This document shows, one piece after another, positions 9,554 through 26,711 of a DNA stretch of 34,851 bases. Numbering within the stretch: position 1 is the first letter of the stretch; each line of letters starts with the position of its first letter. The stretch comes from Bacteroidaceae bacterium. Its GTDB lineage: Bacteria; Bacteroidota; Bacteroidia; Bacteroidales; Bacteroidaceae. The stretch lies in contig JAFXVU010000031.1 in assembly GCA_017534705.1 (NCBI GenBank), positions 1 through 34,851 of the forward strand. Reading direction: 5' to 3'. Under the pieces are notes generated by a model. It did no database searches. It was not told the origin of the DNA and saw only the letters and a program-made list of their open reading frames with translations. A program made the translations under genes and the position numbers.

Positions 9554-11128
9554 TTACCAAATGCTCCTGCTCAGTTCCATCAGCTCCTTGTCGTGGTGCT
9601 GACGTGGCTCGCAACGATTATCGAGAATCATCGTCACACCAGTCTCTGCATTGTAGGGTTCCCACTTGGGAAGTCCTTTCACGTTAGGATTACCCGTTTT
9701 GATAAAAGAGAGCCAGATGCTGCTAATGAGTTTCTCGAACTTATATGCCTTTTCCGAAGCACCCGTCATCTCACGCTGAAGGCTGACGTTGTGTAGCATA
9801 AAAGGCAGTTCCATGCCATGGGAAGCACCAAGCGCATTGCTCTCTGGTTTCCATGTGAACAGATAAAGATATGCTGGTGCTCCTCCTTGAGCGGCCTTGG
9901 CTGCTGCTTGACTTACGGCTCCAGCACGGAAGCCTGTATCGACGTAAGTCATTTCCTTGGGCTGTGCATTGGGATAGGCTTTTCGGAAAGCAGCGATATA
10001 TTGGTCGGCCTTTTCCCCCTGACGCTGGCGCACGGCGGCTTCGGCTTCCTCCCATGTCATATCACGACTGATGTCGAACGTAAACTCATTGAAGTCAGTA
10101 CCAATAAGCATCGGTACATCCTTAGACACAGGTGAGGCTGGGTCGAAAGGATGCTGAGGCAAGATGGTTCCATCGACCACGGGCGAGAAACCGCCACGTA
10201 TGCCCTTCTGACTCAGACGGGTAACAGCGTGGTTAAGTTCGTCGTAGGTAAACCGTGAAAAATCGGCCTGTGCTGTTGCGGGCTGTCCCAATTCCTGAGC
10301 AAATGCGCGTCCAAAAGCCTGCCTCTGCTCTGGCAAGGCTTGGCGTAACGTCGACCCACTCTGAACAATAGCCCGTTTGAAGAGACCCTTAGCCGAAGGC
10401 ATGGCCAACAGTGTAGAGACCTTGCCACCACCACCAGACTGACCGCCAATGGTCACTTCGTCGGGATTGCCACCAAAGAGGGCAATATTGTCGCGTATCC
10501 ATTCCAAGGCTTTGACAATGTCCTGCATACCCAGATTCACGCTCTGTGAGTACTTGCCGCCAAGACCTGTCAGGTCGATGTAGCCTAACACGTTCAGACG
10601 ATGGTTGAGGCTTACTGTGACGATGTCGCCAGCTTCTGCCAATGCACGGCCTTCATAACAAGGTAAATCATGGGCTGACCCTCCTGTATAACCTCCTCCA
10701 TGAATCCACACGAAGACAGGTCGTTTCTTGCCGTCGCTGATACTCGGTGTCCATACATTCAACACAAGACAAGCATCTTCGTCCATCGGCTCGGTGACGA
10801 ACTGGTTACCGAATCCATAGTCGGTCTGGCTGTTGCTGTCATTCCAGCGAAGTGACTCGCCCTGAGGTGCCTGTGGTCCATACACCTTACACTGCCGCAG
10901 CTCAGTGAACTTGTCGGGTGCCTGCGGAGGCATAAAACGCTCGGCCTTGGCATAGCGGATGCCTTTGAATGTGAAAATACTACCATCTTGATAACCTTCA
11001 ATAGGGCCATAGATGGTATTAACACGGGTGTGCTGACCAGCCGTGATAGGTTGCGCCTGAGTGCAGATGATAGCCATCTGAATGAAAAAGGCGGCCAACA
11101 ATAATACTATTCTTCTCATATCTGTCAT
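9554..11128 (-). CDS. Secreted type-B carboxylesterase
   Basis: This 524-residue alpha/beta hydrolase belongs to the carboxylesterase type B (cholinesterase-like) family. It has a Sec signal peptide within residues 1-26 (RRIVLLLAAFF core, TQAQ end); an alternative start three codons in is equally plausible. Family hallmarks are GIRYAKAERFMPPQ near 56-70, EDACLVLNVWTP at 117-128, the oxyanion HGGG at 143-146, and nucleophile GGQSGGGG (Ser231). Glu348 in GTDFNEFT and His437 in ASHGMELPF complete the triad. It is the last gene of the arabinan/galactan operon, 84 bases after the GH2 gene, and is followed by a terminator. A role in removing acetyl or aromatic esters from pectin side chains is inferred from position only; the family is broad in substrate. 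Confidence 0.9.
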   Translation of the reverse strand: MTDMRRIVLLLAAFFIQMAIICTQAQPITAGQHTRVNTIYGPIEGYQDGSIFTFKGIRYAKAERFMPPQAPDKFTELRQCKVYGPQAPQGESLRWNDSNSQTDYGFGNQFVTEPMDEDACLVLNVWTPSISDGKKRPVFVWIHGGGYTGGSAHDLPCYEGRALAEAGDIVTVSLNHRLNVLGYIDLTGLGGKYSQSVNLGMQDIVKALEWIRDNIALFGGNPDEVTIGGQSGGGGKVSTLLAMPSAKGLFKRAIVQSGSTLRQALPEQRQAFGRAFAQELGQPATAQADFSRFTYDELNHAVTRLSQKGIRGGFSPVVDGTILPQHPFDPASPVSKDVPMLIGTDFNEFTFDISRDMTWEEAEAAVRQRQGEKADQYIAAFRKAYPNAQPKEMTYVDTGFRAGAVSQAAAKAAQGGAPAYLYLFTWKPESNALGASHGMELPFMLHNVSLQREMTGASEKAYKFEKLISSIWLSFIKTGNPNVKGLPKWEPYNAETGVTMILDNRCEPRQHHDKELMELSRSIW

Positions 11129-11212
11129 TAATTTAATTATTCTTGTTTATATCTATCAAAACTTTCTTTTGAGGAAACTAACGATATGCTCATTGGCTTT
11201 GACATGATTGGT

Positions 11213-13723
11213 TTATCTGTGTAAAGACACACCTGACGAGGCAGTGAACGTCACTTCTGCGGGTTGCAAACCATCGGCCTCTGCGACGACAGTGACAGAG
11301 CCTGGACGGTCGGCGGCTATGATTGCGAGACATTTGCCCGACCAAGCTTTTCGCTCAGATGACTGCACAGAACCAAGGTCTGTCATATTGCCATTCTCAA
11401 CGCCTAAAAGACGACCGCCCTTCACCGTGAAACGAACAAGATTGTCGCTCAACGGACAGATGTTGCCTTCGGCATCAAGCACTTCGATGGTGACATGCGC
11501 CACATCGGATGGAATTGCGAGGAATGACGGACGGTCAACAGTGGCACGTAAACGGGAGGGAGCACCTGCGGTGCGAATCACCTCTTCCAAGACCACACTG
11601 TCGCGAACCCCCACAACCTTAATCTCTCCAGGCTGGTATTCCACGTCCCACGTCAGATGGAGGTCGGCGGTTGTGGCGAAATGCTTGCCGGGGTCGTAGG
11701 AAGCCCAACTAGGATTGACACCACGACGTGGAAACTCCGTTGCCTTCTTTCCGTATGATTTTCCATTGACAAACAGTTCCACTTCCTCACAATTCGTGTA
11801 GCAAGCTACCTGCATGATTTGTCCCTCATGACCCTCCCAGTTCCAGTGAGGGAAAAGATGTAAGACAGGCTCATCGCTCCAAATGCTTTTGAAAAACCAA
11901 TATCCGTCCTTACAAAACCCGCAATTGTCAAGATAGCCGGACTGACTGCCACGCGAAGGCCACCACGACTCACCATAGTAATCGATTCCCGTCCACATGA
12001 AGTCACCAATGACATAGTCGTATGCAGTGGTGAACCGCCACCGATGTTCCACATCAATCAACTCACTGCTGATAAGTCCTCGGTTACGACGACCAAAAGG
12101 CCGTTGTTGCATTTGTTGTGGACTGAAACCATCTGCCCCTGCTCCCAACTGAGGAGGTGGCATTGTCCCTGTCCATTGATACTGCCGTCGTGGGCCACCC
12201 AATCCCGTTGATTCTGTAGCGACAACACGTCTGTTTGGAAAATCAGACTTATCAATAGCATAAAGCACTTCACGGCGTGTACGCCATCGGTCAGGGTAAT
12301 TATATCCGATGATATCGTTCTCGAAAGCAGCCAGGAACTCAGGCGAAGTAGGGCTGTTGGACGCTATTTCGTCGTTTCCGCTGGTAACTAATCTTGTATC
12401 GTCCAGACGATGGCAGATGGCAATCATCTCTGCCGCTTCTCCAGGTCCTTCCGCCGACCGTTGGTCACGTATTTCGTTGCCAATACTCCACATCACCACC
12501 GAGGGATGGTTTCTGTCGCGTGCCACCATGGCAGTCAGGTCACGTTCATGCCATTCACGGTAGTAAAGATGGTAATCTTGTTTGTTCTTGCCATTAATCC
12601 ATTGGTCGAAAGCCTCATCCATGACAAGAATGCCCATGCGGTCGCACAAGTCAAGAAACTCGGGTGCCGGTGGGTTGTGAGCGGTTCGGATGGCATTGCA
12701 ACCACCACTCTTGAGTATTTCCAGCCGACGTTCCCACACGCGTTCGGGAACGGCTGCACCGACTGCACCACCATCGTGGTGCAGATTGACACCTTTCATT
12801 TTCACTTGCTTGCCGTTCAACAAGAAACCCTTGTCAAGCGGATAATCAATAGTACGGATGCCTAAAGTATTGTCCACCACATCCACCACTCTCTTGCCTT
12901 CAAGGAGTGTGGAACGGAGTGTGTAGAGATAGGGCGTTTCCAAAGACCATGCCTGGGGATGACCAACGGTAACCGTCTGCTCATCGTTCATCATGGGTGA
13001 ATCTGTCATGACAACAGGTTTCTCGCTCTTTGCCACCGTGTTCCCCTTTGCGTCAATAATTTCATGACGCAAAACCAGCGTCCTATGACGTTTCTCACCA
13101 TTCTCCACTTCGGATTTCACTCTCACAACTGCCTCGTCATCATTCAGACTTATGGTACTATTGAACACACCCCATTTGGCAAAGTGGGTGGTTTCGGTCT
13201 CTACAAGTCGCACGTGGCGATAAATACCTGATCCTGTGTACCAGCGGGAATTGGTCTGCTGTGAGTTGTCAACCCTCACAGCAAGCACATTGCCCTTCTT
13301 CTTGAGATAGGGTGTAAGGTCGTAGGAAAAACTGGAATAGCCGTATGGCCATGTCCCCAATTCATGTCCATTAATCCAGACCGTACTGTTCATATAGACA
13401 CCGTCGAACTCGATGGTGTATAGTTTCCGGCTGTCGTAGTTTTTCACATCGAAAGTTTTCCTATACCACCCCAAGCCTGTGGGAAAGAACCCTATGCTCC
13501 CTCCTCCAGGATTGTCGCGTAGGTTTTCTCCCTCAATACTCCAGTCGTGTGGCACATTGAGCCTGCGCCAACTGCCATCATCGTATTCGAGTGACTGCGC
13601 TTTATCAACATCACCAAGATGAAAACGCCATCCCATATCCATATTGGTCATCTTGCGCGGCTGTGCGGAGACGTACGAAACAATCAACACAGCCATCAAG
13701 CAAAGAACGGTCAGTCTTTTCAT
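11213..13723 (-). CDS. Secreted GH2 beta-galactosidase-type glycoside hydrolase
   Basis: The 836-residue protein starts with a Sec signal (residues 1-20, ending VSAQ). Domain order is a GH2 sugar-binding jelly roll (about 30-180), an Ig-like domain (185-290), a TIM-barrel catalytic domain (295-590), a DUF4982-like region and a C-terminal Ig-like domain (about 690-836). The proposed acid/base is Glu417 in MWSIGNEIRD and the nucleophile Glu504 in VATESTG. The segments NVPHDWSIEG and GSGIYRHV are typical of Bacteroidota GH2 galactosidases. Known GH2 activities include beta-galactosidase, beta-glucuronidase and beta-mannosidase. Beta-galactosidase is favoured here because the GH53 gene lies immediately upstream in the same operon (gap 53 bases) and would supply beta-1,4-galacto-oligosaccharides. 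Confidence 0.9.
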   Translation of the reverse strand: MKRLTVLCLMAVLIVSYVSAQPRKMTNMDMGWRFHLGDVDKAQSLEYDDGSWRRLNVPHDWSIEGENLRDNPGGGSIGFFPTGLGWYRKTFDVKNYDSRKLYTIEFDGVYMNSTVWINGHELGTWPYGYSSFSYDLTPYLKKKGNVLAVRVDNSQQTNSRWYTGSGIYRHVRLVETETTHFAKWGVFNSTISLNDDEAVVRVKSEVENGEKRHRTLVLRHEIIDAKGNTVAKSEKPVVMTDSPMMNDEQTVTVGHPQAWSLETPYLYTLRSTLLEGKRVVDVVDNTLGIRTIDYPLDKGFLLNGKQVKMKGVNLHHDGGAVGAAVPERVWERRLEILKSGGCNAIRTAHNPPAPEFLDLCDRMGILVMDEAFDQWINGKNKQDYHLYYREWHERDLTAMVARDRNHPSVVMWSIGNEIRDQRSAEGPGEAAEMIAICHRLDDTRLVTSGNDEIASNSPTSPEFLAAFENDIIGYNYPDRWRTRREVLYAIDKSDFPNRRVVATESTGLGGPRRQYQWTGTMPPPQLGAGADGFSPQQMQQRPFGRRNRGLISSELIDVEHRWRFTTAYDYVIGDFMWTGIDYYGESWWPSRGSQSGYLDNCGFCKDGYWFFKSIWSDEPVLHLFPHWNWEGHEGQIMQVACYTNCEEVELFVNGKSYGKKATEFPRRGVNPSWASYDPGKHFATTADLHLTWDVEYQPGEIKVVGVRDSVVLEEVIRTAGAPSRLRATVDRPSFLAIPSDVAHVTIEVLDAEGNICPLSDNLVRFTVKGGRLLGVENGNMTDLGSVQSSERKAWSGKCLAIIAADRPGSVTVVAEADGLQPAEVTFTASSGVSLHR

Positions 13724-13776
13724 TGCTTTCCTTTTTTATTTCTTTAGATAATCTCACACTTCGGAGCATCAAAACA

Positions 13777-14880
13777 TTACTTTTCTATGAATCCCTCCAT
13801 GATGGCTGTCGGAGCGGCATTACGGTCGAATGCACCGAGTTTATAGCCGCCTGGCAAACATTGAGGCTCCCAATAGAACACACCACGGCAATGGCCGTTA
13901 GTCTGGGTGCGTGATTCGTTGATAACACGGGTGAGTTGCCTCCTACCCTCTTCCATCACCTCGGGATGCTGCTCGTTGACCTCAAAACCTGTCTCTACAA
14001 TCATGACGTCGCAACCATATTTCTCGCTGACATGGCGAATATTGGCCATACAGTCCGTGATGATGTCGTCGGCATTCAATTCTGGATGTCCTTCCATCGC
14101 CCAGTAGGGATAAAGCGACATGCCTATCATGTCGAACTTGCCACCATATTTCAACAGCGTGTCTAAATGATTGTCGTACAGTTTCTGCTGATGACCTCGG
14201 TCAAGATGTACAATGACGATGGCATCGGGAAAGACCTCTTTCACCGCATCGTAGCCCGTACGGATGAAGCCTGCGTACTGTTGAGGTTGGGTTTTGAAAT
14301 GCCCCATACTGTGCGTGATGATGGTGTGGCCGAGAGAGTCTTTCACTTCCCATCCTCTTTCATTGGTTTTCACGCTCCAAAGCATGCCGTTGGTGGTTTC
14401 GTTGCCCACCTGCACCCATCGTGGCTTGATGCCGTTCTCTTTCAGCAAAGAAAGTACTTCTATGGTGTGGTTGCGCAAGTCCTGCTTCATCTCTTCAAAA
14501 GAGTGTCCAAGCCAAGCCTTCGGAATAGGTTGTTTGCCCGGGTCGGCCCAAGAGTCGCTATAGTGGAAATCAACCATCAAGTCCATTCCCAAAGCCTTGA
14601 CCCTTCTGGCCATGGCCAATAGTTCGTTCTTATCATTAGAGCCTCCGCGCGGATTCACCCAGACACGCAGACGTATAGCACTCATCTGGTAATCGGTTTT
14701 CAGCAGTTCCAGACACTCGCGCTCATTGCCGTTACGGTCGTGAAACTTCACGCCTCGTTGTTCCTGGCCTGTAAGAAATCCCACGTCGGCTCCCTTTACG
14801 AAGTCCTTGTCATTGACTTGAGCATTCAATAATATGGCCTGCAAGAACAGACATACCACGAAAAAACGCTTTATATTCAT
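13777..14880 (-). CDS. Secreted GH53 arabinogalactan endo-beta-1,4-galactanase, single domain
   Basis: This endo-enzyme cuts beta-1,4-galactan, the backbone of type I arabinogalactan in pectin. The 367-residue protein has a short signal peptide (residues 1-20, LLNA end) and one GH53 TIM barrel. Family motifs include ADVGFL at 31-36, IRLRVWVNP near 69-77, MVDFHYSDSWADPGKQ at 102-117, VQVGNET with acid/base Glu161 and MIVETGFE with nucleophile Glu296. The length is right for a bare catalytic domain, and no lipobox is seen. It starts 11 bases after the GH51 stop, so the two are almost certainly co-transcribed. It pairs functionally with the downstream GH2 gene. A second GH53 with extra modules is at 20582-22453. 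Confidence 0.94.
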   Translation of the reverse strand: MNIKRFFVVCLFLQAILLNAQVNDKDFVKGADVGFLTGQEQRGVKFHDRNGNERECLELLKTDYQMSAIRLRVWVNPRGGSNDKNELLAMARRVKALGMDLMVDFHYSDSWADPGKQPIPKAWLGHSFEEMKQDLRNHTIEVLSLLKENGIKPRWVQVGNETTNGMLWSVKTNERGWEVKDSLGHTIITHSMGHFKTQPQQYAGFIRTGYDAVKEVFPDAIVIVHLDRGHQQKLYDNHLDTLLKYGGKFDMIGMSLYPYWAMEGHPELNADDIITDCMANIRHVSEKYGCDVMIVETGFEVNEQHPEVMEEGRRQLTRVINESRTQTNGHCRGVFYWEPQCLPGGYKLGAFDRNAAPTAIMEGFIEK

Positions 14881-14891
14881 AAGCTAATTCT

Positions 14892-17423
14892 TTATTTGCT
14901 GACCTTCACTCGCATAATGGTGAAAGACATCGGTGGAAACTCATAATCAAACTGTTTACCGAACTTCCCGAAAAGATGGGTTTGTGGAGCAAGTTTTGTG
15001 GGTTGCTCAAAGGTGTTCTCGTCGTTGGCATCACCATGGAGGGTAATGACCTTGCCCGTAGGAAGAACTGTATTGGTACCATCAATAATGAAAGAACGAC
15101 GGTAGGATTGGTCGGTGCCATTGACAACCTTGATAACGAGTTCGCCTGCCTGCTCGTCATAACCCGTCTGGCAGAAGTGCCGTGTGCGTCCTGTTGGACG
15201 GGCGACGGTCTGCTCCTGCCCATCAACGTAGAGGGTTACTTCCATAGGGGTAACGACAATCTTCACGTCATACCACTTGTCGGTATCGACAGTTTGATTA
15301 GCACGACGACCCAGCACGTCATTGGTACGACCGCGCTGAATGGGCTGAATGGCGGTTGTACGGTTGTTCCAGCCTGCGATATTGGCCGCAAAACCGTTAC
15401 TGCCACGCTCATCCATGCCGTAATAGATGAAAAAGCCTTCCATTCCACCCAACTTACGGGCTTTCAGCTGAAGTGTATAACTGTCGCTGCTGAAACCTGG
15501 CAACAGCGTCATGGTGAGTTGTTCATTGGATGTCTGGCGAATGACATCACCCTCCACCTTCCATTCTCCTCTGCGGCTCTGGAACTGCGAGGGACTGATA
15601 TTCTTCACCTGCCCGTCGGTTGTGGTCACACTGATATCCTTATACTCACACTGTGTGGCATAGCTGCCTAGTCCGATGCCTCCCGCACGGAAAGGCTGAG
15701 CCTCACCTTCTGTAGTCGGCTCACTCACATATATATTATAGGTGGGACGATGCTCAGCACACATCTGCTGTACATAGTAGGAAGCACGGCCATAGACTTC
15801 AGAACTGTTGATATGTATAAGGTTGCAGGGCCAGTCGCGGCGGTTCTCGTTCTCAAAAAGCGGGGCGTACGACGACATCTTCACCACATCGCTGTTGCGC
15901 TCCATACCCATGATGAAGGCAGCCTCACTGAGCGCGGCCAGCAAGTTGCCAGCACCTACACCACCATTGCAGGCATACTCGCCTACATAGATATCGTGGG
16001 TGCGGGGCGCATCATCAAATAGATGGTTGTTGGCAAAGAAGAAATCGGGATTGCGATACCAGTGGGGATCCACCATGTACTCGCCTGGAATCTGCCCCAA
16101 CAATGGGTCGGTGTGACCGAGAGTGTTGATGAATATGATTTGCGGATATTCCGCTTTCAAACGCTTAAAGATATAGTTGAAGTGCGTGACGTATTCAGGA
16201 CCTACATTCTCGTTGCCTATCTCTACATATTTTAATGGGAATGGTTTGGGATGTCCGGCTTCGGCACGCATCTTTGCCCATTTGTTCGTTGCAGGGTCTG
16301 CCAGAGCATAGTCTATGGCATCACGGAAGTCCTGAACCACGGCATTCATATCGGCATCGCTGCTCACGAAATCACCATTGCGAACCGAACAAGACATACC
16401 TGCATTGTTCACAAACATAGCATCCATACCTAAGTCTTCGCAGAACTGAAGGAACTCATGGTAGCCCATGCCCCATGTGGCACGATAACCCCAAACATCC
16501 CATTCGCCTCGGCGGGTCATCGGGTCTCCCAGTGTCTCTTTCCATTTCACTCGGTTCTCATAAGTCGCTCCCTCAACGATGCAACCGCCTGGCCAGCGCA
16601 TGAACTTAGGATGCAAATCAACAAGCATCTGTGCAACATCAGCACGCTGTCCGTTCTTTCGACCTTTGAATGTAGCCTGCGGGAAGAGGGACACGTAGTC
16701 CACCAACACCGTCCCCTTCTGGTCAAACTCCAGGGCAAGCTCACCTTTGACGGCAGTAGCATCGGCTGTCAGTGTTGCTGTCAGCTCCGTCCACTCCTTC
16801 AATGACTTGCTGGTAAAGACGGCCGTTCCAAGCGACGCACCCGTCTCGCCATTCACCAAACGGGCTGTGATGCCACCACGATAATCACTGCTCTTCACAT
16901 AAAAACGCAGGTCGTACTTTTCGCCTTGCTTCAGACCCATGCCCCAATAGCCAATGTTGCTGAGCACAGCCTTGCCGCCCTTCTGCACTTTCGTGATGCT
17001 GAGCTGCATGGCGTGTGGCGTGTTTTCATGCAGTGGTGCAGGGGATTCAATGACATCTCCCTTCACTGTAGCGTTCACACCATCGACCCGCCATCCCGTC
17101 ATCTTTTTCTCATCCATGTTCCAAGGGATGTTCCATTTGCGGTTGTTGCGGTGCTCATAGTTCATGGCATCGACTGCCCAAGCCCGTCCTTCGCGATAGG
17201 TCATACTGGAAGGCAGCACATGTTCCTCGAAACCACGGTTCTGTACCAGTTCGGCATAAAGACCTCCGTCGCCGGCGTGGCTGATTTCCTCGAAAAAGAT
17301 ACCATAGAGGTTTGGCGAGACCACGGCTCCTTTCTGGCCGAGGTCAATTCGGATGGGTTGTGTCTGGGCTGTCGCTAACGAGGCAGTCATCAGCAGCAGT
17401 GCTGAGAATAGAAATTTGTGCAT
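14892..17423 (-). CDS. Secreted GH51 alpha-L-arabinofuranosidase with inserted carbohydrate-binding-like domain
   Basis: The enzyme removes terminal alpha-L-arabinofuranosyl groups from arabinan or arabinogalactan. The 843-residue protein has a Sec signal (1-19, LATAQ). An N-terminal strand unit carries GIFFEEISHAGDGGLYAEL near 42-59. A CBM4/9-like jelly roll occupies about 95-250, and the GH51 barrel follows: MRWPGGCIVEG at 275-285, EIGNENVGPEY with acid/base Glu405 and YVGEYACNGG with nucleophile Glu482. The arabinofuranosidase C-terminal beta domain and an inserted beta-sandwich with FFIYYGMDERGSNGF make up the rest. It lies 46 bases after the GH43 stop and 11 bases before the GH53 start. 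The architecture is the usual one for Bacteroidota secreted GH51 enzymes. Confidence 0.94.
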   Translation of the reverse strand: MHKFLFSALLLMTASLATAQTQPIRIDLGQKGAVVSPNLYGIFFEEISHAGDGGLYAELVQNRGFEEHVLPSSMTYREGRAWAVDAMNYEHRNNRKWNIPWNMDEKKMTGWRVDGVNATVKGDVIESPAPLHENTPHAMQLSITKVQKGGKAVLSNIGYWGMGLKQGEKYDLRFYVKSSDYRGGITARLVNGETGASLGTAVFTSKSLKEWTELTATLTADATAVKGELALEFDQKGTVLVDYVSLFPQATFKGRKNGQRADVAQMLVDLHPKFMRWPGGCIVEGATYENRVKWKETLGDPMTRRGEWDVWGYRATWGMGYHEFLQFCEDLGMDAMFVNNAGMSCSVRNGDFVSSDADMNAVVQDFRDAIDYALADPATNKWAKMRAEAGHPKPFPLKYVEIGNENVGPEYVTHFNYIFKRLKAEYPQIIFINTLGHTDPLLGQIPGEYMVDPHWYRNPDFFFANNHLFDDAPRTHDIYVGEYACNGGVGAGNLLAALSEAAFIMGMERNSDVVKMSSYAPLFENENRRDWPCNLIHINSSEVYGRASYYVQQMCAEHRPTYNIYVSEPTTEGEAQPFRAGGIGLGSYATQCEYKDISVTTTDGQVKNISPSQFQSRRGEWKVEGDVIRQTSNEQLTMTLLPGFSSDSYTLQLKARKLGGMEGFFIYYGMDERGSNGFAANIAGWNNRTTAIQPIQRGRTNDVLGRRANQTVDTDKWYDVKIVVTPMEVTLYVDGQEQTVARPTGRTRHFCQTGYDEQAGELVIKVVNGTDQSYRRSFIIDGTNTVLPTGKVITLHGDANDENTFEQPTKLAPQTHLFGKFGKQFDYEFPPMSFTIMRVKVSK

Positions 17424-17469
17424 GTTGTTTAGTGGTTGTTAGTTAGTTTTAGCTTTGTTGATTATAGCT

Positions 17470-18525
17470 TTATTTGTTAGTTACAAGCTCTGGCCATCCA
17501 TCAGAAGTCCAGTTGATAGTCCGTTGGATAAGCATGGCGGCACCATTCTGAGTGGCACTGTAGCCATGGCAGACAAAGATGTCTTCCCCGTCAAAGTTGT
17601 AGGCAGCGCAGTGTCCAGCGGCTTCCCATTCAGTCTTGTCACCCTCTAGGATAAGCGTTCCTCCACCCAAAAGCATGTCTTTGCCTTCGCGGTCAAGGTA
17701 GGGGCCACTCACATTCTTACTGCGTCCAACAGCCACACGGTAGTTGCTCTGCGCCCCACGGCAGCAATAATCCCAAGATACAAAAAGGTAGTAGTAGCCA
17801 TTGTGGCGGAAGATGAAAGGCGCCTCAATAGCGTTGGGACCGGCGAAGCGAGACGTGGGGTTCTCTGCAGCATTCTTATCACCGGGGCGGTGGCGACGGG
17901 CTATGGTCACAGGCTTAGTGGCCAGATGCATCGTGGAGTCAAGGCGCGCCAACTGTATGCCATCCCAGAAGGAGCCCCATACGAGCCATGGGGTGTCAGT
18001 GTCATCGATGACGAAGTTCGGGTCAATGGCATTCCAATTGTCGCCCGACGTCTGGCCGTCAGCGTTCACTTTCCATGTGTGTGATGTGACGATGCACCCC
18101 TCATCTTTCCATATATTAGCGCCCAAAGAACGACTGCTGAGAAGACCGATAGCCGAACCATTCCTACCGAAGGTTGAGCAACTGTATGCCATCCACCAGC
18201 GGCCATGCCACTGGATGACATCGGGAGCCCAGACATGATTGCCGAAACCTGGCACAGAGTCGGTGGTCCAACCTGGAATGACCGTCATTACGGGTTGTGG
18301 TAACACTGTCCATGTCTTGCGGTCTTTCGATGTCATCTGCTGGATTCCCATGCCCGTAGCGTAGATATAATAGGTGTCGCCTTCCTTGGCCATTACGGGG
18401 TCGTGGACCATAGGTTTGTCTGTCTGGAAAGCCTCACGCTGGAAACGTGGACGACGCTGCCCCTGAGCAGAGGCGGTTGTGATGATGGCAATGAAGCTCA
18501 TCGTCAAAAGAATGGTTTTCTTCAT
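17470..18525 (-). CDS. Secreted GH43 arabinanase (endo-1,5-alpha-L-arabinosidase type)
   Basis: The 351-residue protein is a five-bladed propeller glycosidase with a signal peptide (1-20, TTASAQG). The three catalytic carboxylates are visible: base Asp42 in MVHDPVM, Asp168 in NAIDPNFV and acid Glu234 in NAIEAPFIF. WAPDVIQWHGRWWMAYS near 99-114 and DYCCRGAQSNYRVAVGRS near 252-269 resemble endo-arabinanases of family 43, so alpha-1,5-arabinan is the likely substrate; exo-acting arabinosidase is an alternative. It is the first gene of the operon that continues with GH51, GH53, GH2 and carboxylesterase. Its upstream region of 140 bases is shared with the divergent propeller/AraC regulator gene, which suggests control by that regulator. 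Confidence 0.92.
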   Translation of the reverse strand: MKKTILLTMSFIAIITTASAQGQRRPRFQREAFQTDKPMVHDPVMAKEGDTYYIYATGMGIQQMTSKDRKTWTVLPQPVMTVIPGWTTDSVPGFGNHVWAPDVIQWHGRWWMAYSCSTFGRNGSAIGLLSSRSLGANIWKDEGCIVTSHTWKVNADGQTSGDNWNAIDPNFVIDDTDTPWLVWGSFWDGIQLARLDSTMHLATKPVTIARRHRPGDKNAAENPTSRFAGPNAIEAPFIFRHNGYYYLFVSWDYCCRGAQSNYRVAVGRSKNVSGPYLDREGKDMLLGGGTLILEGDKTEWEAAGHCAAYNFDGEDIFVCHGYSATQNGAAMLIQRTINWTSDGWPELVTNK

Positions 18526-18572
18526 GATGGTAAGTATTGTAAATTATTAATTGGTTACAAAAAGTTGGGATA

Positions 18573-18580
18573 CAAAAGTA
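18573..18580 (-). promoter_or_regulatory. -7 promoter element of the GH43-led operon
   Basis: Read on the minus strand the bases are TACTTTTG, matching TAnnTTTG, 48 bases before the GH43 start. No clear -33 TTTG is present, which would be usual for an activator-dependent promoter. Confidence 0.55.
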
Positions 18581-18600
18581 TAAAAAATTTTCTAAAAGAG

Positions 18601-18626
18601 CATTGAACAGATGTCACATCTCAATG
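18601..18626. promoter_or_regulatory. Candidate operator dyad between divergent promoters
   Basis: AGATGT-C-ACATCT (18609-18621) is a perfect 6+6 palindrome. It is embedded in outer arms CATTG (18601-18605) and CAATG (18622-18626), which are also complementary. It lies between the two -7 elements of the GH43 operon and the regulator gene. Binding by the regulator at 18666 is an inference. Confidence 0.4.
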
Positions 18627-18634
18627 AAATTATG

Positions 18635-18642
18635 TAACTTTG
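18635..18642 (+). promoter_or_regulatory. -7 promoter element of the propeller/AraC regulator gene
   Basis: TAACTTTG matches TAnnTTTG exactly and lies 23 bases before the ATG at 18666. No convincing -33 element is seen. Confidence 0.55.
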
Positions 18643-18665
18643 TGTTCTATTATTAATAAGACATC

Positions 18666-20684
18666 ATGCAAAACATCATAATGGCCATTTTGACATGGCT
18701 ACTGATACCGCTGAGTTTGGCCGCACAAGGTCAGAAGTATTTAAAACTACCCAATCAGGAACTACTTTCGTCCAGTAATGTGCTGTTCGTGATGGAGGAC
18801 AGCGAAGGCTGTCTGTGGTATGCTACTGAAGGTGGCGGCGTGTGTCGAGACGACGGACGACAGATGGACATTTTCCGTAGCGATGCTGAACGTCCGGAAC
18901 TGCTGGGCAGCAACAATGTGGGTTGTCTGGCCGAGGCGAATCATCACATCATTATTGGAACCTTCCATGGTGCTTATGCGCTCGACAAGAACGATTTCAA
19001 TATCAGACGTCTGGAAGAGGTCGATGACAAACGGGTGGACGACATCTTGTTGCTGCACAATGGCGATGTGTTGCTGACGGCAAACATGAAAGTGTATCGT
19101 TTTGACAGTACACTGACTCTACGTGCTACCTACATTTCACCTCAGAAATATGTGGCGCGGCTCTTTGAGGATGGCAACGGACGCATTTGGGCCACTCAAT
19201 GGGAGGGCGGTCTGCTCTATTTGAAAGGCGACAGCCTGGTCGAAGCACCTTGGCCTCTCGACGCTGCACCGACAGTACTGGCTGACGATTCAGCTGGCTG
19301 TCTATGGGTAGGAACATTGGGAAACGGCATTGTCCGCTATCATCCAGATAAGGGCAGTGTCGATCTGCAACCACAGGCTGGACAAGGAATCTGCACCGAC
19401 CTCAAGCGCTCAGCTTCAGGCGACCGTCTATACGCATGCACGATTGACAGGCTGCAAGTTTACAAGACTGGAGAAGAACTAAAGGCCATCACGCTTGACT
19501 CCATCATGGACAATGTCCCTATGGCCATGGGCAGAATGTCGCTTGACCATCATGGACGTTTGTTAGTGGCTAACCGCCAAGGCGAATCTTTTGCTATCGG
19601 TAATACCCTTTTATGGAATACAGGGGGATTCCTCACCACCCAATATGCTGACTCCGTACGTATGGCCCGTCAATTGTCTTCTCGTCCCACGGCTATCACT
19701 TATTCCGAGGATGGAACGCTATGGTTCAGCACTGGTAAGGATATACGCCGAAAGGCGCAAGCGTCGGAAGTTGAAGACGTGGTGCTACCCGACACTAAAG
19801 ATGTAGCAGCCATGACTTTCTCCGCTGACGGAACACTATGGCTCGGCACCATATTCGGACAGCTTTACCGCTACAAGGACGGACAACTGACGACTGACAG
19901 TTATGCGGCCAACGAACATGGTGACGGCATCATTGCCATGAACACCGACAGCACCGGAAGACTGGTCATCGTCTATGACCGCTACGTACGGATTTACGAT
20001 ACCGAGCGTCACACTCTGCGCCAGCAGAGCCGAGAAGCCGACGGCGTATACTGCATAGAACTGCAAGAGACCATGCCTGACGGCCGCTGGAGCCAGCCCG
20101 AGCGTGACATCATCGTGGAACTGGTGCCTAAATGGCTCACGTCATGGTGGATGTGGTGCGTCTATTTGCTTGTAGTCATTGGCATCGTGGCTCTCGCTAT
20201 ATATAACTACATCTTAAGACGCCAACGTGACAAGTTCCTTGAAATGATGAAGGCACCAGCTCCATCCCACACTACAAGCGAAGAGACTTCTGAATCTCAG
20301 ACGACTCCTTCTGCTCTGGAGCCACAAGGATCCTTACTTCTTCAAAAAGCCATTGCCCAAGTAGAGAAAAACTTGAGCAATGACCAATACACTGTAGAAG
20401 AATTGAGCAACGACCTGTGCATGAGCCGAATGACCCTTTATCGCAAAATCCAATCACTCACAGGCCAGAAACCCACAGAGTTCATCCGTACCATCCGCCT
20501 TCGACGTGCTGCAGAATTGCTGCGCGAAGGGCAACTGACCGTCACCGAGGTCAGTTACGCCACGGGTTTCTCATCGGTCAGCTATTTCAGCCGTTGCTTC
20601 CGAACAATGTACAGTGTTCCTCCCACACAATTTGGCAAAGAGACCACTGCCGACGACCGAGCACCCAGCGAGATTCCCAACTGA
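18666..20684 (+). CDS. Membrane-spanning one-component regulator: periplasmic propeller, TM, AraC-type HTH
   Basis: The 672-residue protein starts with a signal sequence (1-19, LSLAAQG). About ten short propeller repeats follow (for example GCLWYATEGGG near 50, GCLWVGTLGNG near 215, GTLWLGTIFGQ near 390), as in the sensor part of hybrid two-component systems (HTCS). A remnant of the Y_Y_Y domain end (IIVELVPKWLTSWWMW) leads into one membrane span at about 493-515. After a short Ser/Thr-rich linker, an AraC/XylS double helix-turn-helix fills about 556-660 (YTVEELSNDLCMSRMTLYRKI; VTEVSYATGFSSVSYFSRCFR). Histidine kinase, ATPase and receiver domains are absent, and the length is about half that of a typical HTCS. 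It is divergent from the GH43-led operon and most likely senses arabinan or galactan oligosaccharides in the periplasm. Its 3' end overlaps the convergent GH53 gene. Confidence 0.88.
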   Translation: MQNIIMAILTWLLIPLSLAAQGQKYLKLPNQELLSSSNVLFVMEDSEGCLWYATEGGGVCRDDGRQMDIFRSDAERPELLGSNNVGCLAEANHHIIIGTFHGAYALDKNDFNIRRLEEVDDKRVDDILLLHNGDVLLTANMKVYRFDSTLTLRATYISPQKYVARLFEDGNGRIWATQWEGGLLYLKGDSLVEAPWPLDAAPTVLADDSAGCLWVGTLGNGIVRYHPDKGSVDLQPQAGQGICTDLKRSASGDRLYACTIDRLQVYKTGEELKAITLDSIMDNVPMAMGRMSLDHHGRLLVANRQGESFAIGNTLLWNTGGFLTTQYADSVRMARQLSSRPTAITYSEDGTLWFSTGKDIRRKAQASEVEDVVLPDTKDVAAMTFSADGTLWLGTIFGQLYRYKDGQLTTDSYAANEHGDGIIAMNTDSTGRLVIVYDRYVRIYDTERHTLRQQSREADGVYCIELQETMPDGRWSQPERDIIVELVPKWLTSWWMWCVYLLVVIGIVALAIYNYILRRQRDKFLEMMKAPAPSHTTSEETSESQTTPSALEPQGSLLLQKAIAQVEKNLSNDQYTVEELSNDLCMSRMTLYRKIQSLTGQKPTEFIRTIRLRRAAELLREGQLTVTEVSYATGFSSVSYFSRCFRTMYSVPPTQFGKETTADDRAPSEIPN

Positions 20685-22453
20685 GACTGCGGCACTCTGC
20701 GGACAAACACTCCCGAGAGACTATAAATATCCACCATTTCATCATCATCGCCGATGCGCTGACTGGTGATGCCTGTCAAATCGCTTGGCAATGGTGCGTC
20801 CTGTCCTTCCAAAGGGAAAACACGCAGTGATGTGATATCGGGCAAGCCTGTATTGCCCGTTGCGGTCAGTAGTAGTTCATGATTACCAGGTTGCGTTATT
20901 TCGATGTCAAGGGTGTGGTAGCCACCCGAGTTCTTTTGGAAAAAGCTTTTACAGATGCTGTCTCCGTCAACACGTATCTCTGTTCTGCGAAGCGCTGGAC
21001 TGCTGTATTTGAATGCCAGGCGATAATGTCCAGCCTCAGTCACCGAGATGCCCCAACGTGCTGTGCCTCCTTTTTGGTCTCCGTTCTCTACAATACCAGC
21101 ATCGAACAACGTCGAACTACCCACAAAAAAACTCACGGTGTCGGTGGTCTGGGTGTTATTTGATGTGTCGGTGGCTTTTGCCCATGCTGTATGAACGCCA
21201 ATGGTTGTATCGTTCACAGTAAATGGGATGGTGGCTATTGTCCCTACAGAACTGAGGTCTTCCACCGTATAGGTTCCGACTGTATTCTTGTCAAAATGGA
21301 ATTCCACCGAATGAATACGATTCTTGCGCTGATGCTGTATGCGAGCCTTCAGTTCAAGGTCACCAGCCTCAAAACTCTGGTCTGGAGTCGGTGAGGTCAT
21401 CTTCGCCTTCATCAGCCACGACACTTCCGTATGCTTCACACCCAGAAAAGCATCCATCATTACAGTAGGCTTGCGGGTAGACTCGTCCCATGCACCCATG
21501 TCGTAGCCGCCCATTGATTCGGGCTCCCAATAGAAGCATCCCAAGTCACCATTCTTAATCATCTTATCCATCACACCCACCAAATACTGGTTGCCTGCAA
21601 CGGCCTCTCGGGGGTAGTGACCCGTCTCCACAATCATGCAAGGGGTACGGTAGCGACTTTTCAAGTCATTGATGTTGGCCATCACCTTATTAATCATTGT
21701 CGGACCGTCAAGATGCGACCAGCGAGGATAAGCCGAAAGACCTATGATATCCCACTTAGCACCATTTTTCTTCAAACCATCGAAGATACTGCGATAGAGC
21801 GAGTTATCATGTCCATCGGGTAAGTGTACAATGACTTGCATGGTCGAATCCACAGCCTTCACAGCGTTATAGCCACTTTGCACAAACTTGGCGAACGCCA
21901 CCGAACCACCTTTGTTGGTCTGCCCTACGGGGTAGAGCATTCCGCGTTTCGTCTCGTTGCCCACCTGCACCCATTTCGGGACGACACCTGCCGCCTTGAT
22001 GGCTGATAGCACATCGTAGGTGTGGTCATATATGTTTTTAGCGAGCGCATCCACACTGTGGTCTGTCCATGCAGAGGGAATGGTTTGACTGCCTGGGTCA
22101 GCCCAAGTGTCGCTGTAATGGAAGTCTATCATCACACCCATACCTTTCTCCTTGGCCCGTTTGCACATGCTGACAACCTCTTGTTTGCTACTGGCTCCGC
22201 TGTTCACCGTCCATACGCGTAAGCGGATGTTGTTGATGCCTTGCTCCTTCAGAATCTGCAGGATATCCTTCTGCTTGCCATTCTTGTCGAGCCATTTCGT
22301 CCCCCAGCTCTCCATCTGTGGCACGAAACTCACATCGGCGCCAAAAGCGAAGTCCTCGTGTTCAGAGCGGTTAAAGATTGTGTCAGGTACAGTAATGGCA
22401 TGGACGCTCATTGCAGTCCATGCCATCGTCAGAATAATAAGTAATTGTTTCAT
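20582..22453 (-). CDS. Secreted multidomain GH53 endo-beta-1,4-galactanase
   Basis: This 623-residue protein has a Sec signal (1-19, MSVHA). The GH53 barrel (about 35-345) carries GADVSFVPQ, MIDFHYSDTWADPGSQ, VQVGNET with acid/base Glu167, and MIVETGHY with nucleophile Glu276. Residues about 345-440 look like an Ig-like domain. About 445-555 is a beta-sandwich with HYRLAFKYSS and HELLLTATGNTG, probably carbohydrate-binding. The end (VDIYSLSGVFVRR ... LYIVRKQRLK) resembles a C-terminal secretion/sorting tail seen in Bacteroidota, so the enzyme may be surface-bound or released. It is transcribed toward the regulator gene and its last 103 bases overlap that gene's 3' end. A -7 element lies upstream at 22487-22494. 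It is a separate unit from the operon GH53 at 13777-14880. Confidence 0.92.
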   Translation of the reverse strand: MKQLLIILTMAWTAMSVHAITVPDTIFNRSEHEDFAFGADVSFVPQMESWGTKWLDKNGKQKDILQILKEQGINNIRLRVWTVNSGASSKQEVVSMCKRAKEKGMGVMIDFHYSDTWADPGSQTIPSAWTDHSVDALAKNIYDHTYDVLSAIKAAGVVPKWVQVGNETKRGMLYPVGQTNKGGSVAFAKFVQSGYNAVKAVDSTMQVIVHLPDGHDNSLYRSIFDGLKKNGAKWDIIGLSAYPRWSHLDGPTMINKVMANINDLKSRYRTPCMIVETGHYPREAVAGNQYLVGVMDKMIKNGDLGCFYWEPESMGGYDMGAWDESTRKPTVMMDAFLGVKHTEVSWLMKAKMTSPTPDQSFEAGDLELKARIQHQRKNRIHSVEFHFDKNTVGTYTVEDLSSVGTIATIPFTVNDTTIGVHTAWAKATDTSNNTQTTDTVSFFVGSSTLFDAGIVENGDQKGGTARWGISVTEAGHYRLAFKYSSPALRRTEIRVDGDSICKSFFQKNSGGYHTLDIEITQPGNHELLLTATGNTGLPDITSLRVFPLEGQDAPLPSDLTGITSQRIGDDDEMVDIYSLSGVFVRRVPQSQLGISLGARSSAVVSLPNCVGGTLYIVRKQRLK

Positions 22454-22486: not shown

Positions 22487-22494
22487 CAAAGGTA
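22487..22494 (-). promoter_or_regulatory. -7 promoter element of the multidomain GH53 gene
   Basis: On the minus strand the bases read TACCTTTG, a perfect TAnnTTTG match, 33 bases before the ATG at 22453. A -33 element is not obvious. Confidence 0.55.
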
Positions 22495-22585
22495 CACATT
22501 TCCCTTGCAGTCGCCTTTCACAGTTGTAACAAACGGATGAACGTATGTATCAATCTGCCTTTTATGGCATGTTTCGATTGTCTTT

Positions 22586-26000: not shown

Positions 26001-26711
26001 TTACTTGACTGTCAACCTGTAAGACTTTCCTCGGTCAGACTCGATTTTCAGGTTGGAATGTTGCTCTACAACGGGTTTCAGTCTTTTGATGAGCGTGTAG
26101 AGCGTCTCGCTGGCATCTGGTTTTCCAGGCCAAAGCGCAGCGCAAATCTCAGTTTTTGTCAGTGTGTATGCCGGTGCATGATAGAACATCTCCATCAATT
26201 GGTGCTGCATGGGAGTCAGCTGTACCGCATCACCGTTGAGGGTGAAGAAACGTTTCTCTGCTTCTGAGAACACAAGTCCGCCATAACGGTTTCCTTCTAT
26301 GGCAGATGCCACGGGAAGCGTCCGTACTTTCCGATACCAGGTGAACATGGCCCACAACAATGTCAAGGTCCACAACAAGGCGGCCGGCCGTTGGTCGGAC
26401 ATGCTGAAAATGGTGGCTTCGGAACACTTGGCGTATGCCTTGAACTTCTGGCTACGAGCATCTACAGCTAAAGTGGCCTTTCCTCGCAGTTCGGCTATTT
26501 GCAAATGACTGTTGAATATGCGGACTGTATCAAGAGTGATGACATCGCTCTGCTGTTCCTCCATGGTGATGGCCAATGCCCTGTCCATATCCTCATTCAC
26601 CATCCGCCTCGTCGTACGGTAACGGTCGAGACTGGTCAGCCCTGAAGCCAGGAACAACGCAAAAAGCACGATGACTGCATACTGCTGTTTCATATTGTTT
26701 GTACGTTTCAT
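26001..26711 (-). CDS. Membrane-anchored winged-helix regulator (OmpR-type DNA-binding domain)
   Basis: The 236-residue protein has a first membrane span at about 11-27, a periplasmic stretch of about 80 residues, a second span at about 108-124 (AALLWTLTLLWAMFTWY), and a cytoplasmic C-terminal domain. The last 85 residues (FTLNGDAVQLTPMQHQLMEMF ... TKTEICAALWPG ... LYTLIKRLKPVVE ... GKSYRL) match the Trans_Reg_C winged helix of OmpR-type regulators. No receiver domain is present, so it resembles CadC/ToxR-type one-component regulators but with the DNA-binding domain at the C-terminus and two spans. An alternative start six codons in (26693) is equally good. It is followed by a terminator and preceded by the Sel1 lipoprotein gene 62 bases upstream on the same strand. 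The signal sensed is unknown. Confidence 0.8.
   Translation of the reverse strand: MKRTNNMKQQYAVIVLFALFLASGLTSLDRYRTTRRMVNEDMDRALAITMEEQQSDVITLDTVRIFNSHLQIAELRGKATLAVDARSQKFKAYAKCSEATIFSMSDQRPAALLWTLTLLWAMFTWYRKVRTLPVASAIEGNRYGGLVFSEAEKRFFTLNGDAVQLTPMQHQLMEMFYHAPAYTLTKTEICAALWPGKPDASETLYTLIKRLKPVVEQHSNLKIESDRGKSYRLTVK

Follow-up and report, generated by a model that had tools for sequence, protein, structure and literature searches.

How a sugar signal could reach a promoter through a glycan sensor that carries neither a kinase nor a receiver is the question raised by one regulator gene in the window, the whole stretch of 34,851 nucleotides from a Bacteroidaceae bacterium analyzed here. In gut Bacteroidota, hybrid two-component systems (HTCSs) are major sensors of glycans. 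The full HTCS frames in the genome of the window encode 1119-1435 amino acids versus 672 for this regulator, in line with the half length noted in a preliminary description of the DNA. The gene and its parts are:

18666..20684, + strand: regulator gene with ATG start, 672 amino acids (ORF translation, Pfam, AlphaFold2)
18735..19610, + strand: complete seven-bladed propeller, residues 24-315, presumably exported to the periplasm (AlphaFold2, fold match)
19683..20030, + strand: three extra blades, residues 340-455, remnant of an HTCS-type second propeller (AlphaFold2, fold match)
20031..20129, + strand: remnant of the C-terminal part of Y_Y_Y, residues 456-488 (profile match)
20130..20252, + strand: transmembrane and juxtamembrane helix, residues 489-529 (hydrophobicity span, AlphaFold2)
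20253..20336, + strand: disordered linker, residues 530-557 (AlphaFold2, low confidence)
20337..20639, + strand: AraC-type double helix-turn-helix (HTH), residues 558-658 (Pfam, AlphaFold2)

The protein begins with a signal peptide, which is followed by ten propeller blades, a Y_Y_Y remnant of 33 residues and a single membrane span; a disordered linker then leads to the AraC double HTH. Pfam detects HTH_18 at residues 580-658 (E 3.6e-22), HTH_AraC and Reg_prop (E 1e-15), and returns no match to HisKA, HATPase, Response_reg or a complete Y_Y_Y even at E 0.5. The AlphaFold2 model, based on a 26-row alignment, has a mean pLDDT of 83.9 and shows a signal helix at residues 2-18, ten four-stranded blades between residues 24 and 455, a long helix at 489-529, a low-confidence linker at 530-554 and a helical HTH domain at 555-655. 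The only hydrophobic span besides the signal peptide is located at 499-517. In fold comparison, residues 22-315 superpose on canonical seven-bladed propellers (Z ~25, rmsd ~3, ~275 residues), so that the ten blades can be read as a closed seven-bladed ring with three left-over blades, and the best PDB matches of the whole sensor are the HTCS sensors 3ott, 4a2l, 4a2m, 3va6 and 3v9f. The preliminary description had read a signal peptide, about ten propeller repeats, one span and an AraC double HTH from the sequence, with no histidine kinase, ATPase or receiver in 672 residues, and both Pfam and the structure prediction that it called for agree with that reading. The Y_Y_Y stub it described is likewise real: residues 459-525 align to positions 60-125 of a 139-position HTCS profile that runs from Y_Y_Y to the juxtamembrane region (E 8e-13 in a search of ten sequences), and the first half of Y_Y_Y is missing.

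This architecture is shared by a group of related proteins. Among 399 genomes sampled from the family of the regulator, 27 contain a match at E < 1e-50, and after setting aside a full HTCS (genome G024) and a 192-residue fragment (G053), 25 genomes with an orthologue remain. Reg_prop and HTH_18 are present in all 26 aligned orthologues, whereas Pfam finds a kinase, ATPase, receiver or Y_Y_Y domain in none of them. Their identity to the window protein is 47-68%, and in the HTH tree they group as a single clade (support 100/99). At nearly every locus whose flanks could be read, the regulator lies next to GH53, GH43, GH51 or esterase genes. The preliminary description had proposed a search for a conserved kinase-less clade with a similar locus, and had stated that kinase and receiver domains in all of the close homologues would speak against it; the clade exists, and its aligned members lack both. 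One orthologue is encoded in a single-contig genome (G232), and assembly error therefore does not explain the absence of the kinase. Besides the fragment in G053, a frameshifted orthologue is found in G114. At locus L047 (1183-5904), the orthologue lies in frame behind a UvrD-type helicase ORF, giving a frame of 1573 amino acids with an internal signal peptide, which is either a gene fusion or an assembly error.

The closest full HTCS is a 1284-residue protein at locus L126 of G024 that carries HisKA, HATPase, receiver and Y_Y_Y domains. The regulator is 43% identical to it in the N-terminal propeller and 63% identical in the HTH domain, and the junction of the orthologue clade with L126 in the HTH tree is weak (90/54). 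What is left of Y_Y_Y has the look of a scar from one deletion, while kinase and receiver would have been removed by another, the direction of change presumably being loss and not gain. Filing the regulator itself as an HTCS was rejected, since the three defining domains are absent.

The sensors and linkers vary in length among the orthologues. The sensors fall into length classes of ~350, 394, 435 and 496 residues, which, by their length, would correspond to roughly 8, 9, 10 and 11 blades, the ten of the window protein being taken from its model, and these classes require seven changes on the tree of shared columns. The shortest orthologue, L118 with 564 amino acids, is modelled at a pLDDT of 72 and a pTM of 0.43, and residues 36-360 of this low-confidence model match the designed propeller Cake9 and WDR41, a hint of a single ring that is too uncertain to be relied on. 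The linker, which is acidic and rich in Pro and Gln, ranges from 19 to 52 residues, and such variability argues against rigid signal transfer and for tethered, paired DNA-binding domains.

The regulator is flanked by a divergent operon and a convergent gene:

17470..18525, - strand: GH43 (arabinanase-like), first gene of the divergent operon (Pfam)
14892..17423, - strand: alpha-L-arabinofuranosidase with ASD1_dom and Alpha-L-AF_C, labelled GH51 (Pfam)
13777..14880, - strand: GH53 endo-galactanase (a) (Pfam)
11213..13723, - strand: GH2 beta-galactosidase-like protein (Pfam)
9554..11128, - strand: carboxylesterase-family protein, last gene of the operon (Pfam)
20582..22453, - strand: GH53 endo-galactanase (b), convergent with the regulator (Pfam)

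This gene content points to the galactan and arabinan side chains of pectin as the substrate. No SusC/SusD pair is seen among the genes scanned (window positions 9554-22453), and oligosaccharide uptake may thus be encoded elsewhere. The 3' ends of the regulator and GH53 (b) genes overlap by 103 nt (20582-20684), coding on both strands. An overlap of exactly 103 nt occurs in nine loci (the window, L044, L074, L105, L110, L113, L114, L117 and L123), and all 13 convergent regulator/GH53 pairs overlap, by 58-145 nt. The GK-TTADD tail is absent from most orthologues that have no convergent GH53 gene and thus seems to be a side effect of the overlap.

Two candidate operators are found at this locus, each associated with a -7 box:

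18602..18640, - strand: candidate operator A, GTTACA-n4-TTCA-n7-GTGACA, direct repeat with a 21-bp period facing the GH43 operon, core 18612-18638 (pattern, matrix)
18573..18580, - strand: -7 box TACTTTTG of the GH43 operon, 37 nt past the second half-site
18635..18642, + strand: -7 box TAACTTTG of the regulator gene, overlapped by operator A
22515..22553, - strand: candidate operator B, GATACA-n4-TTCA-n7-GTTACA, before the second GH53 gene, core 22525-22551 (pattern, matrix)
22487..22494, - strand: -7 box TACCTTTG of the second GH53 gene, 36 nt past the second half-site

In other species, the form GTTACA-n4-TTCA-n7-GTTACA, again a direct repeat with a 21-bp period, is found upstream of the second GH53 gene. 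A regulon search of the 3.33-Mb genome by sequence pattern yields exactly two occurrences of the degenerate operator, both at the regulator locus, where 0.03 would be expected by chance in the window with one mismatch allowed. As the pattern was defined after inspection of these same promoters, the independent test is a matrix trained on other species only, which scores operator B at 47.7 bits and operator A, the weaker of the two sites, at 24.9 bits, with the next best site at 5.0. Furthermore, for 32 of the 37 sites from all loci, the distance between the second half-site and the start of the Bacteroidota -7 box TAnnTTTG, which is not included in the matrix, is 36 or 37 nt. The pattern is present in 15 of the 25 genomes with the regulator and in 17 of the 374 without it (Fisher p 2e-12, a guide only as the genomes are not independent), and most of the matches in these 17 genomes look like background. 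Matches resembling real sites are seen at G123:C59:15526 and G337:C3:178423, and no regulator was detected in either genome. The control of a pectin side-chain operon that the preliminary description attributed to the protein is thus supported by a position-locked predicted operator common to both transcription units.

Operator A covers the -7 box of the regulator itself at 18635, which suggests autorepression, and an overlap of operator and own promoter of the form TATGTAACTTTG recurs in several orthologues. For HTCSs of Bacteroides, the predicted motifs are direct repeats of 21 bp on average (PMC3878776), so that, with a 21-bp period here, the DNA side would have kept the HTCS geometry. In G024, two TTGTTACA half-sites with 22-bp spacing (L126 10655-10693) are located just downstream of the HTCS gene and before a GH30 gene, and are perhaps a site of that HTCS.

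Taken together, these results indicate that the regulator is probably an HTCS-derived one-component transmembrane activator of pectin side-chain genes that acts without kinase or receiver. In the proposed mechanism, an HTCS ancestor would have lost the front half of Y_Y_Y and the entire kinase-receiver block. The periplasmic propeller would detect a galactan or arabinan side-chain oligosaccharide, as the locus suggests, and the signal would pass through the single membrane helix to the AraC DNA-binding domain on its flexible linker. Two AraC domains may then occupy the predicted 21-bp-period direct repeat just upstream of the promoter, and RNA polymerase would be recruited to the GH43-GH51-GH53-GH2-esterase operon and to the second GH53 gene, while at the divergent site the protein would cover its own promoter and limit its own expression. 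Since there is no kinase or receiver, the ligand must control the pairing or the placement of the HTH domains. DNA binding would depend on how the two domains are paired or positioned, and the most likely step is that the ligand makes the periplasmic sensors dimerise or reorient; dimerisation is plausible in view of the direct-repeat operator and the flexible linker. Signal transfer without phosphorylation, as originally proposed, would follow from this anatomy.

An alternative is that a partner, be it a kinase encoded separately, a co-sensor or an inhibitor protein, replaces the gating that was lost with the kinase-receiver block. In HTCSs the receiver domain restrains the AraC domain and keeps it off the DNA, so something has to take its place (PMC11253607), and CadC depends on the co-sensor LysP (PMC5430869). 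However, among the neighbours identified, no conserved partner gene lies beside the regulator across the loci, and no receiver domain remains as the target of a kinase, which makes such a partner unlikely. Release of the AraC domain as a soluble factor by regulated proteolysis would suit the variable, acidic and Pro/Gln-rich linker with its low confidence in the model, but the orthologue linkers contain no conserved cleavage motif and a tethered dimer would be enough for a direct repeat, as CadC, which has a disordered linker and requires dimers, works while anchored in the membrane (PMC5430869); we consider this route quite improbable. It is even harder to maintain that the operators serve a different AraC-type regulator or HTCS, with the 672-residue protein acting elsewhere or being idle. 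The genome offers many other membrane-bound HTH_18 regulators, and the TTGTTACA half-sites at L126 are spaced 22 bp apart, yet the pattern is limited to the regulator locus within the genome, tracks the regulator across genomes and overlaps the promoter of the regulator. Finally, a truncated, decaying HTCS or an assembly error is hardly credible, as the partial second propeller and Y_Y_Y, the frameshifted copy and the fragment are outweighed by about two dozen intact orthologues at 47-68% identity that share the same deletion, one of them in a single-contig genome, and by conserved operators; with few amino-acid changes relative to the near-identical G002 (11 synonymous differences and 4 changed codons in 315 codons compared), a recent deletion product or pseudogene is likewise rejected.

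The one-component activator favoured here is not the only kinase-less regulator of its genome, which is 82% complete and encodes at least 17 membrane HTH_18 regulators: ten are full HTCSs, and the other seven, among them propeller types and one protein with a Peripla_BP_4 sensor, lack HATPase and receiver. An AU test on the HTH tree rejects descent of all the kinase-less regulators from one origin (p-AU 0.00027), with at least five state changes; the tree has ~100 columns and weak deep forks, and the exact number of losses is therefore unsure. Recurrent loss of the kinase is the simplest reading of these sequences, domain exchange being possible. On balance, we lean towards the view that HTCSs of this family repeatedly shed the whole phosphorelay to give working one-component membrane activators, which kept the operator geometry and lost blades singly (11, 10, 9, 8).

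Several other proteins deserve mention in this regard. L063, L066 and L067 combine a sugar-binding Peripla_BP_4 sensor with one transmembrane segment and HTH_18 in the absence of a kinase, L063 and L066 being assigned by Pfam and L067 by its position in the HTH tree. The 720-residue protein at L070 2645-4807 (G003) has Peripla_BP_4, HisKA, receiver and HTH_18 but no HATPase, and is perhaps a half-way stage of kinase loss. At L130 226-3168 (G000), a 980-residue propeller/Y_Y_Y/HTH_18 protein lacks HATPase and receiver, and a custom profile finds a HisKA-like stretch past its transmembrane segment that Pfam does not. Within the window, the frame at 26001-26711 (- strand) has an N-terminal hydrophobic segment, a second candidate span around residues 110-126 identified by eye and a C-terminal Trans_reg_C winged helix, and is possibly a second one-component membrane regulator.

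RhgR/YesS of Bacillus subtilis is a membrane AraC-type activator of pectin (rhamnogalacturonan) genes with a sensor of a different kind. With HTCSs such as BT4663, BT3049 and BT0366, the regulator shares the kind of propeller sensor, the juxtamembrane region, the AraC HTH and a predicted direct-repeat operator of 21-bp period (PMC3878776), but it lacks HisKA, HATPase and receiver, most of Y_Y_Y is gone and the second propeller is reduced to three blades. SusR, the starch regulator of B. thetaiotaomicron, is a membrane protein with a periplasmic sensor and a cytoplasmic DNA-binding domain that activates polysaccharide genes, and, like the regulator, has no kinase (PMC3878776). However, the DNA-binding domain of SusR does not significantly resemble any known family, and the SusR repeats are 67 or 77 bp apart (PMC3878776), compared to an AraC HTH and 21 bp here. 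The likening to ToxR in the preliminary description holds as an analogy, since ToxR and CadC are single-pass membrane activators that need no phosphorylation, and CadC serves as the working analogy for the model of linker and dimer. It does not extend to domain order or DNA-binding fold: ToxR and CadC have an N-terminal cytoplasmic OmpR-type winged helix and a C-terminal periplasmic sensor, whereas the regulator has the reverse order, an AraC HTH and an unrelated sensor.

A census of transmembrane transcription regulators (TTRs) defines them by a transmembrane segment and a DNA-binding domain in one chain, gives Rsp of Neisseria gonorrhoeae as a kinase receptor joined to a response-regulator DNA-binding domain, and counts ~72% of the membrane transcription regulators of the genus Bacteroides as hybrids with two-component domains (PMC10269533). 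The regulator has the transmembrane segment and the DNA-binding domain and no two-component domain, as in a non-hybrid TTR. The main text of the census does not mention AraC, propellers or Reg_prop and apparently describes no operator or HTCS-derived lineage (PMC10269533), and a literature search, mostly outside subscription journals, found no description of HTCS-like proteins without a kinase. Kinase-less membrane regulators of polysaccharide genes (SusR) and membrane transcription regulators in general are thus known already, while a defined HTCS-derived AraC clade with a candidate operator, a regulon and a sensor that shrinks blade by blade appears to be new.

A natural relative of HTCSs that matches them in sensor type, DNA-binding domain and operator spacing, and yet has neither kinase nor receiver, offers a test of what phosphorylation adds, and the predicted operator and regulon of two transcription units make this question directly testable. 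The protein is also a compact candidate sensor from oligosaccharide to promoter for engineering. If the phosphorelay has indeed been lost repeatedly in the family, the receiver-based inhibition thought to be general for HTCS DNA-binding domains would be dispensable.
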